From contig SUUQ01000006.1 of NCBI GenBank assembly GCA_015062445.1, positions 1 through 64,000 of the forward strand: a DNA stretch of 64,000 bases, read 5' to 3'. The notes below the pieces were generated by a model that made no database searches, was not told the origin of the DNA, and saw only the letters and a program-made list of their open reading frames with translations. The stretch's first letter is position 1. Each line of letters opens with the position of its first letter. Source of the stretch: Alphaproteobacteria bacterium (GTDB taxonomy: Bacteria > Pseudomonadota > Alphaproteobacteria > Rs-D84). A program made the position numbers and the translations under genes. Positions 59,397 to 64,000 of this stretch are shown here, piece after piece.

Positions 59397-59858
59397 CTAT
59401 TCTGCGAACGTAATCTGGACATAGTTTGTTCCGTTCGTTCCGTTGCACGAACCAACTGCCCCACTTTCTTTTTTATCAGACAATTGATACCCCACAGAAT
59501 CGGTCCATGCCCGTGTTGCCAATGCCTGGCAATCATTTTTCGTCAGCCCATTAATAGTCAACACAAACTGTCTTGCATTGCTGGGATCAACCACGACTTC
59601 ATATGTTCCGCCATATGGATTTTGTTTTTTCCCCATAATCTCCAGCAACACATTCCCATCCATTCCTGAAAAATCATCATATTGACTGTGCTGTGTGCGT
59701 ACCTCGTTAACGATTGCAAAGATCTCTTCTTGGACCTTCATTTGTTTTTGGTTATTAAATGCCAACTTAATCAATTCATATGCCCCCACTGTCAGCATTC
59801 CCATAATTGCCAGTACCCCCAGCATTTCAATCATTGAACGACCCGATTCTTGATTCAT
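59397..59858 (-). CDS. Prepilin-like protein with type IV N-terminal helix
   Basis: The 153-residue protein starts MNQESGRSMIEMLGVLAIMG, a class of pilin leader with a short charged leader, a Ser-Met-Ile-Glu cleavage region with the Glu at position 5 of the mature chain, and a hydrophobic helix. The C-terminal domain has two Cys (NDCQALATRAW and GSCNGT), as in pilin disulfide loops. It may be a minor pilin or pseudopilin; no pilus assembly genes are adjacent. It is divergent from uvrC. Confidence 0.8.
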   Translation of the reverse strand: MNQESGRSMIEMLGVLAIMGMLTVGAYELIKLAFNNQKQMKVQEEIFAIVNEVRTQHSQYDDFSGMDGNVLLEIMGKKQNPYGGTYEVVVDPSNARQFVLTINGLTKNDCQALATRAWTDSVGYQLSDKKESGAVGSCNGTNGTNYVQITFAE

Positions 59859-62051: not shown

Positions 62052-62080
62052 TTAAAACCGCCACATACGGCGGTTTTATT
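62052..62080. terminator. Bidirectional terminator between pgsA and the next gene
   Basis: AAAACCGCC-acata-CGGCGGTTTTA (62054-62078) is flanked by A and T on both sides; the genes are convergent. Confidence 0.8.
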
Positions 62081-63008
62081 CACCAACCCCATACATAAAA
62101 TTACCAGTTCCTTTATTTCCATAAAATTTTTGTTCCACCACATCCCACATACCATTTGATGGCACAACAAAATTTCCAATTTGCAATCCTGCTGGCACAG
62201 GAACAAAATCACGCACAGGCACCGAATACTCAAGCAATTTCACACGATACATCCGTGCATCAGCAAGTTCTGTTTCGCGACCTGCGGCATTAATCCCATA
62301 CAACAAAAAAGAATACTGCATCCGCATATCACGTTCAAAGGTCACATCATAAATAATCGGCCCCAAATCAGTATACGTTGTCACAGTCGTAGATTTTACC
62401 CCATTATAATCATTATTATTCTCCACACGCACCCACCCCCGTTTTCCATACACAAACATAGATTCGCTCGGAATAAAATTATCAGGAACCCGCCACCCCG
62501 GATTATGCCTTCCCACTGCATCATATCCAAAATTCAAACGCGCATAATTCCCCCCCAGCCCTGCCGAAAAAGCCCCCGCCTGCCAATCATTATAAGCCCC
62601 CGCCACACTATACAATTCTTCTTTATCATAGATAATCAGATCAAAATAAAAACCAAAACTATGTGCCCACGGTTTATATCCGGTATCAATATACTGGGTT
62701 CCTGTTGACTCTAACCACACATCTGAATCAGCATCAACCAGACAATTACCAACGAACCAATAATGCCCAACATGCTGTTTTTCCCCCTTACACACAGTAT
62801 ATTCTATCCCCTCATCTTCTATATGCAATGTATTCATTCCACTTTGTGTTGTTAACGGGGCATATACTATCTCATTATCAACTCGCACATGCAAAGACGG
62901 AATTGTTACTCGTTCCTTATGCAGTGGAATTTGTATATTACCCACATACAATGTACGCCCAAAACATTCAATCGACACCATCAACAACACAAATACAAGA
63001 CATCTCAT
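62076..63008 (-). CDS. Secreted protein with STGTQYIDTG motif (lectin-like domain)
   Basis: The 310-residue protein has the signal peptide MRCLVFVLLMVSIECFG. The stretch DVWLESTGTQYIDTGYKPWA starts a beta-sandwich-like domain seen in many proteins from gut alphaproteobacteria and phages (LamG/concanavalin-like by fold; carbohydrate binding is inferred). The end FYGNKGTGNFMYGVGE is the usual companion motif. The start at 63006-63008 follows GGGGGG; a longer reading would lie in the terminator region. The gene sits behind a structured leader with a terminator. Confidence 0.78.
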   Translation of the reverse strand: MRCLVFVLLMVSIECFGRTLYVGNIQIPLHKERVTIPSLHVRVDNEIVYAPLTTQSGMNTLHIEDEGIEYTVCKGEKQHVGHYWFVGNCLVDADSDVWLESTGTQYIDTGYKPWAHSFGFYFDLIIYDKEELYSVAGAYNDWQAGAFSAGLGGNYARLNFGYDAVGRHNPGWRVPDNFIPSESMFVYGKRGWVRVENNNDYNGVKSTTVTTYTDLGPIIYDVTFERDMRMQYSFLLYGINAAGRETELADARMYRVKLLEYSVPVRDFVPVPAGLQIGNFVVPSNGMWDVVEQKFYGNKGTGNFMYGVGE

Positions 63009-63028: not shown

Positions 63029-63059
63029 AAAAAAAATCCGTCAACCTGCGGATTGACGG
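63029..63059 (-). terminator. Terminator in the leader of the STGTQYIDTG gene
   Basis: On the minus strand CCGTCAA-tccgcagg-TTGACGG is followed by ATTTTTTTT. It lies only 21 bases before the start codon at 63008, so it acts upstream of that gene as an attenuator, or ends a separate small RNA. Confidence 0.8.
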
Positions 63060-63200
63060 TCGGGGTGTTCGAAAATCACCAAACTAATGACTCCCATAAT
63101 CTTTTGTTATACATTACGGGCACCCCGACCTTTATGTCGGGGAGATTTTAACGACACAAATACGCACCCCACCGATTGGGTGATATACATCATTTGTACC
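63058..63200 (-). ncRNA. Structured leader RNA, candidate riboswitch or small RNA
   Basis: On the minus strand GGTCGGGGTG (63121-63130) pairs with CACCCCGACC (63058-63067), ten bp. Inside it CCCGTAAT/ATTATGGG (63113-63120 with 63093-63100) forms a second helix and the remaining bases a weak third, so a three-way junction is possible. GTCGGGG can instead pair with CCCCGAC just upstream (63123-63129 with 63136-63142). The last two bases of the long helix are also the first two of the terminator stem. I recognise no known riboswitch class, tmRNA, SRP or RNase P signature. Confidence 0.5.
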
Positions 63201-63283
63201 GAGTTTGGCGGGCTTTCGACAGCCCCGAACCTGCATCTCTACAGATTCACACAAATAATAAACTATTTACCTATTATTACGCC

Positions 63284-63325: not shown

Positions 63326-64000
63326 TCAGAACCAACTTTTTTTACCAGATTTTGTTTCTGCAAATTCCGTTAAAATCTTTTTTTGTTTTTCTGTTAATTT
63401 CGTTGGAATTTTTATTGCCACATCTATATACAAATCTCCAAAGGTTCCCGCCCGTCTGACCGATGGCATACCATGCCCACGCACACGCAGTTTTTCACCA
63501 ACCTGTGTTCCCGAAGGGACTTTTACAGCCAGCTCTTTTCCATCTATGGTTTCAACTTCGATTTCGCCGCCCATGGCCAGTGTTGTAAATGGCACGTCTA
63601 CACGCATAATCAAGTCATTACCACGTCTTTCGAATTTTTTATCCTGTCTGATATGAATATCCAGATAGAAATCCCCTGCCGGCCCACCATTTATACCTGC
63701 TTCGCCCTGTCCTGCCAAACGCAGTCGTGCTCCATCCTCGATACCTGCGGGAATTTTTACTTCCAACGTACGTTGTTTATGTTCTGTACCTGTACCATTA
63801 CACTGACTGCATTTTTTATCAATCTTGCGCCCCAGTCCATTACAATCTGGGCATGGTTGTTCCATTGCAAAGAAACCTTGACGTGTTTGTACGAAACCAC
63901 TGCCCCCACATCGTGGGCATGCTGGGGCCGCCTTACCATCTGCCGTACCATGACCATGACATTTTTCACATTCTACATTACTGGAAAATTTAACAGTATG
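63326..64000 (-). CDS. dnaJ: Chaperone protein DnaJ (C-terminal part, cut by window edge)
   Basis: DnaJ delivers substrates to DnaK and stimulates its ATPase. The readable 224 residues begin inside the zinc-finger domain with four repeats: CEKCHGHG, CPRCGGSG, CPDCNGLG and CSQCNGTG. The peptide-binding C-terminal domains follow (LEVKIPAGIEDGARLRLAGQ, GTFGDLYIDVAIKIP). The J domain and Gly/Phe region lie beyond 64,000, so the gene is partial. There is no internal start; a Met at 63865 is in the middle of the zinc finger. Confidence 0.97.
   Translation of the reverse strand, partial: HTVKFSSNVECEKCHGHGTADGKAAPACPRCGGSGFVQTRQGFFAMEQPCPDCNGLGRKIDKKCSQCNGTGTEHKQRTLEVKIPAGIEDGARLRLAGQGEAGINGGPAGDFYLDIHIRQDKKFERRGNDLIMRVDVPFTTLAMGGEIEVETIDGKELAVKVPSGTQVGEKLRVRGHGMPSVRRAGTFGDLYIDVAIKIPTKLTEKQKKILTEFAETKSGKKSWF

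Follow-up and report, generated by a model that had tools for sequence, protein, structure and literature searches.

The antisense RNA c4 of phage P1 resides in the leader of the gene downstream of it and carries two short complementary blocks, a and b, with upstream copies a1 and b1. Transcription attenuation by antisense RNA is also the basis of copy control in the plasmids pT181 and pIP501, where the antisense RNA comes from the opposite strand. According to the available text of the papers cited here, the scheme of c4 RNA comprises the elements a1/b1, a′/b′ and a2/b2 (set out in a paper on A. baumannii, PMC5320573), both c4 and c4-a1b1 have been tabulated (PMC2864571), and another small RNA, sRNA-Xcc1, lies upstream of symE in integron cassettes of Xanthomonas (PMC12444791), has several copies in Xylella (PMC12189769) and was detected as an 88-nucleotide RNA by Northern blotting and end mapping (PMC2996969). 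Here we describe a leader RNA in a stretch of 64,000 nucleotides (nt) from an alphaproteobacterium of the Rs-D84 lineage (contig SUUQ01000006.1, positions 1 to 64,000; hereafter the window), where it lies between dnaJ and a gene for a secreted protein. We propose, with a probability of roughly 0.55, that this RNA forms the 5′ leader of the mRNA for the secreted protein and acts in cis as a transcription attenuator built from an antisense module of the c4/sRNA-Xcc1 type.

By its sequence, the leader combines a promoter-like −10 box, a 5′ address of two short blocks, a 3′ domain that folds as a three-way junction and is complementary to the address, and a terminator that shares its foot with the helix closing the junction (P_B). 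All of its elements are on the minus strand, downstream of the 3′ end of dnaJ at 63326 and ahead of the next gene, which starts at 63008:

~63248 to 63029, minus strand: gene leader of ~220 nt, between dnaJ and the secreted-protein gene
63255..63260, minus strand: −10 box TATTAT, with the transcription start expected at ~63248
63227..63248, minus strand: P0 hairpin GAATC..GGTTC, present in most copies displayed and in the sequence itself
63210..63225, minus strand: P1a hairpin GGGCT/AGCCC, with covariation (consensus pairs 8-12 with 19-23)
63219-63215, minus strand: first address block TCGAA, in the P1a loop
63202..63209, minus strand: second address block GCCAAACT, pairing with 63085-63078 (pk2) as judged by cognate pairing tests
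63152..63203, minus strand: P2 hairpin domain of variable size, from the predicted fold and helix 2 of the family alignment
63142-63136 with 63129-63123, minus strand: P3 hairpin CCCCGAC/GTCGGGG, the rival of P_B
63121..63130, minus strand: 5′ strand of P_B, GGTCGGGGTG, with covariation
63091..63120, minus strand: P4 hairpin with a conserved internal loop (helix 4, both-side changes in 8/8 pairs)
63076..63090, minus strand: P5 hairpin (helix 5 of the family alignment), with the loop AGTTTGG (63085-63079) as the complement of 63209-63202
63069..63073, minus strand: TTCGA, partner of the P1a loop (pk1), with covariation
63058..63067, minus strand: 3′ strand of P_B, CACCCCGACC, whose last 4 nt also form the terminator foot
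63029..63061, minus strand: intrinsic terminator, with its stem at ~63061 to 63036 and a U run to 63029
62076..63008, minus strand: downstream gene of 310 amino acids with a signal peptide-like start and no Pfam family

Folding of 63270-63028 gave −93.3 kcal/mol (z −6.7), and none of 200 shuffled sequences folded equally well. The shorter stretch considered in the initial annotation (63029-63200) folds with a z of −4.0; the 5′ part of the RNA, consisting of P0, P1a and the segment 63219-63202 that pairs with 63085-63069, lies beyond it. That annotation had proposed a 10-base-pair (bp) helix closing a likely three-way junction, an upstream hairpin competing with it for GTCGGGG and an overlap between the base of the helix and a terminator just before a secreted-protein gene, and had suggested a covariance search in related genomes. 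These proposals have held up well: the search returned homologous leaders with covariation, GGTCGGGGTG and CACCCCGACC form the 10 bp of P_B and close a junction with P4 and P5, CCCCGAC at 63142-63136 can pair with the GTCGGGG of P_B at 63129-63123, and the overlap (GACC in the window copy) is conserved ahead of the open reading frame (ORF) starting at 63008. The terminator has a 9-bp stem followed by a U run, one of four terminator-like sites found against 0.5 in shuffles, and ends 20 nt before the start codon. By sequence and folding model, it is placed ahead of the start codon and is mutually exclusive with an upstream helix, as in an attenuator. We had also considered an ordinary intergenic terminator combined with chance folding, a thought encouraged by the terminator-like site that dnaJ has of its own at 63312-63285, but the folding z of −6.7, the covariation and the recurrence across the family refute it and leave it a negligible probability.

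At its 5′ end the RNA probably begins with P0. No promoter with a −35 match was found at the window leader, and 28 of 36 gut leaders have a TATAAT-like hexamer 40-25 nt ahead of the core, most often at −29 or −30, against a frequency of 0.23 in shuffles. By gut leaders we mean those of the window's group; counts are given below separately for the copies in the window's own genome (own, 1.05 Mb), for other leaders of the same group (other gut) and for loci outside it (class loci).

The RNA belongs to a family whose copies share structure more than sequence. With the window copy as query, blastn detected related sequences in 17 of 59 genomes, every one in the window's genus. A consensus of 23 copies (alignment A1, from which the long copies L004 and L019 as well as L016 were left out) comprises P1a, P2, P_B, P4 and P5, with both-side changes at 18 of 33 pairs, and with a covariance model, R1, the RNA was detected in 140 of 156 genomes within the genus and in 176 of 201 within the order. 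Matches become sparser in samples of the class (29 of 289 genomes, 2 of them from the window's genus) and of the phylum (10 of 299, with 2 outside the class and 1 from the window's genus). The window's genome holds at least 18 copies, 16 of which were found by R1 at E≤0.01, its E-values being rough, and two divergent ones (L035 and L036) through a search with RF02221, the Rfam family of sRNA-Xcc1. Because searches over more than 40 genomes score 8-17 candidates per genome, copy counts are lower bounds, and the genome samples are partial. A pattern scan of named genomes returned at least 118 stretches; R1 confirmed 78 of the 80 listed, and among the matches listed were Rhizobiales, Sphingomonadales, Paracoccus, Asticcacaulis, an Agrobacterium Ti plasmid and Acidobacteriaceae. 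In the wider alignment, A2, 95.4% of cells are paired and 442 cells are changed on both sides, compared with 128.9 in shuffles. Eighty of its loci were picked by an exact pattern on both strands of P_B, so that selection accounts in part for the invariance of P_B, and the alignment had been fitted to the structure; A1 is free of this pattern choice and derives from the blastn search with the window copy. Read in this way, the compensatory changes support the structure.

Copies are also carried by Ti and other conjugative plasmids of rhizobia (for example L161 on pTiCG78), and one rhizobial copy is matched by 276 plasmid records. Beyond the Proteobacteria, copies occur in Acidobacteria (L133, L135, L138, L165 and L182), which suggests horizontal transfer. 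A phage origin of the window copy was considered and rejected: it had no match in phage records, and a strict pattern found 8 stretches in 2.9 million viral contigs. One locus (L014, G020:C5) has a tandem pair of leaders about 1.4 kb apart, with a gene after each. The number of copies per genome, their presence on conjugative plasmids and the occurrence of sRNA-Xcc1 within integron cassettes (PMC12444791, available text) would all fit a mobile repeat, similar to a miniature inverted-repeat transposable element or an integron attC site, that folds by happenstance. The copies nevertheless have in common their structure and their spacing to promoter and start codon, not their sequence, as the gap between the blastn result and the covariance model within the genus makes plain, and we regard a mobile repeat as very improbable. 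The literature searched contained no earlier description of the gut or rhizobial family, which is weak evidence of absence given that few subscription papers were covered.

The address takes part in two long-range pairings. Its first pairing, pk1, joins the P1a loop to the strand between P5 and P_B and is 92% paired, with 14 cells changed on both sides. Its second, pk2, joins the next 7-8 nt after the P1a loop to the P5 loop. The block concerned (GCCAAACT in the window copy) is hypervariable, and because pk2 changes completely between copies, it was examined by comparing cognate with non-cognate pairing. These counts cover 22 RF02221 loci, 8 of 30 having been cut by contig ends, and of 101 R1 matches L088 and L096 were dropped as the same loci as L134 and L117, along with one lacking the downstream sequence for the pairing and terminator tests; L035 and L036, missed by R1, are left out of the pairing, terminator, switch-model and −10 counts. 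For own copies the cognate duplex reaches −19.9 kcal/mol against −9.8 for non-cognate ones and is the best in 13 of 16, as it is in 20/20 other gut leaders, 42/78 class loci and 12/22 RF02221 loci. An exact 7-mer match to the partner within the same RNA is present in 14/16 own copies (background 0.10), 20/20 other gut leaders (0.04), 72/78 class loci (0.11) and 20/22 RF02221 loci (0.17). The address of the window copy has no second site in its genome. A second target downstream gave no clear signal in gut leaders (exact 7-mers in 3/16 own copies, background 0.125, and 7/20 other gut leaders, background 0.234) or in class loci (12/78 against 0.089, a slight excess).

The RNA is regularly placed ahead of genes. 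An ORF starts on the strand of the RNA just after it in all 18 own copies, with start codons, re-picked by their ribosome-binding sites, at 11-105 nt after P_B and mostly at 40-54 (for L035 and L036 the distance is counted from the RF02221 match), and the dominant downstream ORF is on this strand in 17/18 gut leaders and 65/76 other loci. Terminator-like sites are found in 13/16 own and 19/20 other gut leaders (0.04 and 0.02 when shuffled), in 20/78 class loci and in 0/22 RF02221 loci. Wherever an own or gut leader has such a site its stem overlaps P_B, by 1-6 nt and mostly 4, and the same is true of 14 of the 20 in class loci. These observations bear on another explanation, in which the RNA is an independent small RNA that acts in trans and has a promoter and terminator of its own, the downstream gene being a mere neighbour. 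The −10 box and the terminator would suit it, and so would the 88-nt sRNA-Xcc1 (PMC2996969, available text). With all 18 own copies followed, just past the terminator, by a start codon on the same strand, and with an address that the window's genome contains nowhere else, however, we think an independent small RNA quite unlikely.

How close is the kinship with sRNA-Xcc1? At Rfam cut-offs the only gathering match in the window is one tRNA, and 18 loci of the wider family yielded tRNAs, 6S and ar14 only, none of them on the RNA itself. The view in the initial annotation that no known class fits is therefore right at these cut-offs and wrong insofar as sRNA-Xcc1 is a detectable relative. RF02221 is the sole Rfam family to appear on this RNA in several loci, appearing below its cut-off six times in the window's genome, each time on a family member, and also in 4 of 11 class loci. 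Plain membership is rejected, the window copy scoring 28.2 bits (63129-63051) and the best in its genome 36.5 against a cut-off of 53. In the opposite direction, R1 searched against 37 loci (30 RF02221 and 7 C4) gave 13 matches at E≤1, the best at 1.2e-8, 12 of them on RF02221 elements and one weak match (L274) beside a C4 element; a site near 314.8 kb in G659:C40 is matched by both models. The two RNAs share the three-way junction of P_B, P4 and P5 in the same order, with similar strands and a G-rich closing helix of 9-10 bp, and sRNA-Xcc1 loci also have an upstream P1a-type hairpin and both long-range pairings, which are absent from the Rfam model and were found here. Unlike the gut leaders, sRNA-Xcc1 loci have no terminator (0/22) and repeat their target at the start codon: an exact 7-mer of it lies downstream in 14/22, against a background of 0.165, and both target blocks occur in order in 12/22 by reading of the sequences, usually 10-30 nt before the ATG (L237, L240, L242, L248, L249, L250, L251, L252, L254, L256, L263 and L264). 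Ten genes at RF02221 loci, when scanned, encoded three Bro-N, two Phage_pRha, KilA-N, P22_AR_N, SymE and AlpA proteins and one without a family.

Judged from sequence, these RF02221 loci follow the a1/b1, a′/b′, a2/b2 scheme of phage c4 RNA, and by analogy with c4 the 3′ domain of sRNA-Xcc1, with its second target at the ribosome-binding site, most likely blocks translation. At L254 (G659:C40, ~304.7 kb) the RNA precedes a symE toxin gene and both blocks are repeated just before the start codon; here the RNA may be an antitoxin-like regulator of symE. With c4 itself (phages P1 and P7; RF01695, with c4-a1b1) the gut leaders share the logic of a leader RNA with two complementary blocks and upstream copies of these, and their closing helix begins GGU (63130), comparable to the GGW RNase P site of c4 (PMC5320573, available text). 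They differ in having a terminator and no a2/b2 near the start codon, no such target having been found over the downstream ribosome-binding site in gut leaders, and the window gene is not an antirepressor. Membership in RF01695 was also rejected, with 0 matches at E≤1 in six genomes of the genus (G000, G014, G073, G084, G164 and G171). As in pT181 and pIP501, we propose that an RNA-RNA contact near the 5′ end sets terminator formation, with the difference that the complement in a gut leader lies within the same transcript.

According to this proposal, the address (the P1a loop plus the 7-8 nt after it) would pair within its own RNA with the 3′ domain and block P_B, in which case P3 would form and the terminator would halt transcription, leaving the gene off by default. 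Were the address occupied, cleaved off or out-competed, the freed 3′ domain could form P_B, which would take GACC from the terminator and allow the gene to be transcribed. Candidate triggers include another copy of the RNA acting in trans, an RNA chaperone or other protein, cleavage by RNase P or RNase E, and elongation rate. Folding 36 gut leaders without pseudoknots provided a model of the switch. In the free full transcript P_B formed in 0/36 and the terminator foot was paired in 34/36, whereas P_B formed in 23/36 when the address was blocked at the moment of its completion; with the 3′ domain alone plus terminator, P_B formed in 33 and the foot was paired in 17. The window copy is the clearest case, a blocked address giving P_B a probability of 0.98 and the terminator foot 0.09. 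Static energies of P_B and P3, of mixed sign and based on crude pair picking, are superseded by this model, whose results therefore favor termination by default with kinetic escape upon freeing of the 3′ domain.

Several points weigh against an attenuator of this kind. Once the terminator is included, a blocked address yields P_B at equilibrium in only 4/36 leaders (the window copy among them), and the switch would therefore have to be kinetic in most of them. The folding model lacks pseudoknots, and pk1 and pk2 coexisting with P_B could reverse the logic. P3 is 79% paired across the family alignment without informative covariation, because GTCGGGG is invariant. The terminator-like sites in just 20/78 loci outside the gut group indicate that the platform differs there, and homologues of the window gene in relatives, the gene itself being found in 33/147 genomes, have the leader nearby in only 8 of 29 loci. 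Lastly, a pseudoknotted riboswitch would likewise show a 5′ address and its complement on the 3′ side. This brings up a new class of riboswitch sensing a metabolite or second messenger, with a transcriptional platform and the long-range pairings as aptamer pseudoknots. Cyclic di-GMP switches likewise occur in many copies ahead of diverse genes, and the complex conserved fold, the terminator overlap and the conserved internal loop of P4 are what such a sensor might display. Its genes, on the other hand, have no metabolic theme (secreted proteins, an EcoRI-type methylase, FtsK, Stealth, PLD, helix-turn-helix proteins and antirepressors), and relatives use these loops for targets located at start codons. 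We consider a riboswitch unlikely, and less likely than a c4-type attenuator. The initial annotation was accordingly apt in describing a leader with exclusive helices and a terminator, but the label riboswitch-like is not supported, given the missing metabolic theme and a nearest relative that is an antisense-type RNA.

The P4 internal loop (~63115-63100 in the window) has a conserved UAUA or AAUACAA-like stretch followed by GAAAG, which pairing does not explain; a protein or tertiary contact is possible. The own downstream genes encode a TRL-like lipoprotein, an EcoRI methylase, FtsK, Stealth and two PLD-like proteins, in addition to one helix-turn-helix match just under cut-off, two weak sub-cut-off matches and nine proteins without any family. 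In many alphaproteobacterial loci (L108-L110, L088 and L097) a conserved hairpin like GCGGGGGCGCACCGC replaces the terminator ahead of the start codon. A small gene with a RovC-type DNA-binding domain (formerly DUF2285) recurs after the RNA in many Rhizobiales and Paracoccus (L193, L162, L160, L146, L131 and others), perhaps on integrative elements. In the window, a short pilin-like gene at 59397-59858 begins MNQESGRSMIEMLGVLAIMGML, and RNA copies L094 and L098 precede pilin-like genes.

An attractive though speculative and rather unlikely extension of the attenuator is that the leaders are mutually insulated, self-addressed switches, in which each 3′ domain, once released by cleavage or termination, would work in trans on the address in new transcripts from its own locus only and let them read through the terminator. 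If true, a phage-type antisense immunity module would have given rise to RNA autoactivation of about 18 separate genes, mostly for surface proteins, in a 1-Mb genome. More broadly, our analysis places the orphan sRNA-Xcc1 (RF02221) in a cis setting, in which its predicted target lies at the start codon of the gene that follows, SymE and phage antirepressor genes among them. It also adds a putative branch coupled to a terminator in gut Alphaproteobacteria, which no Rfam 15 family captures at its cut-off and which has relatives across the class and on rhizobial plasmids. Since each copy has its own short and explicit address and target, the mechanism should be testable by exchanging only a few bases.
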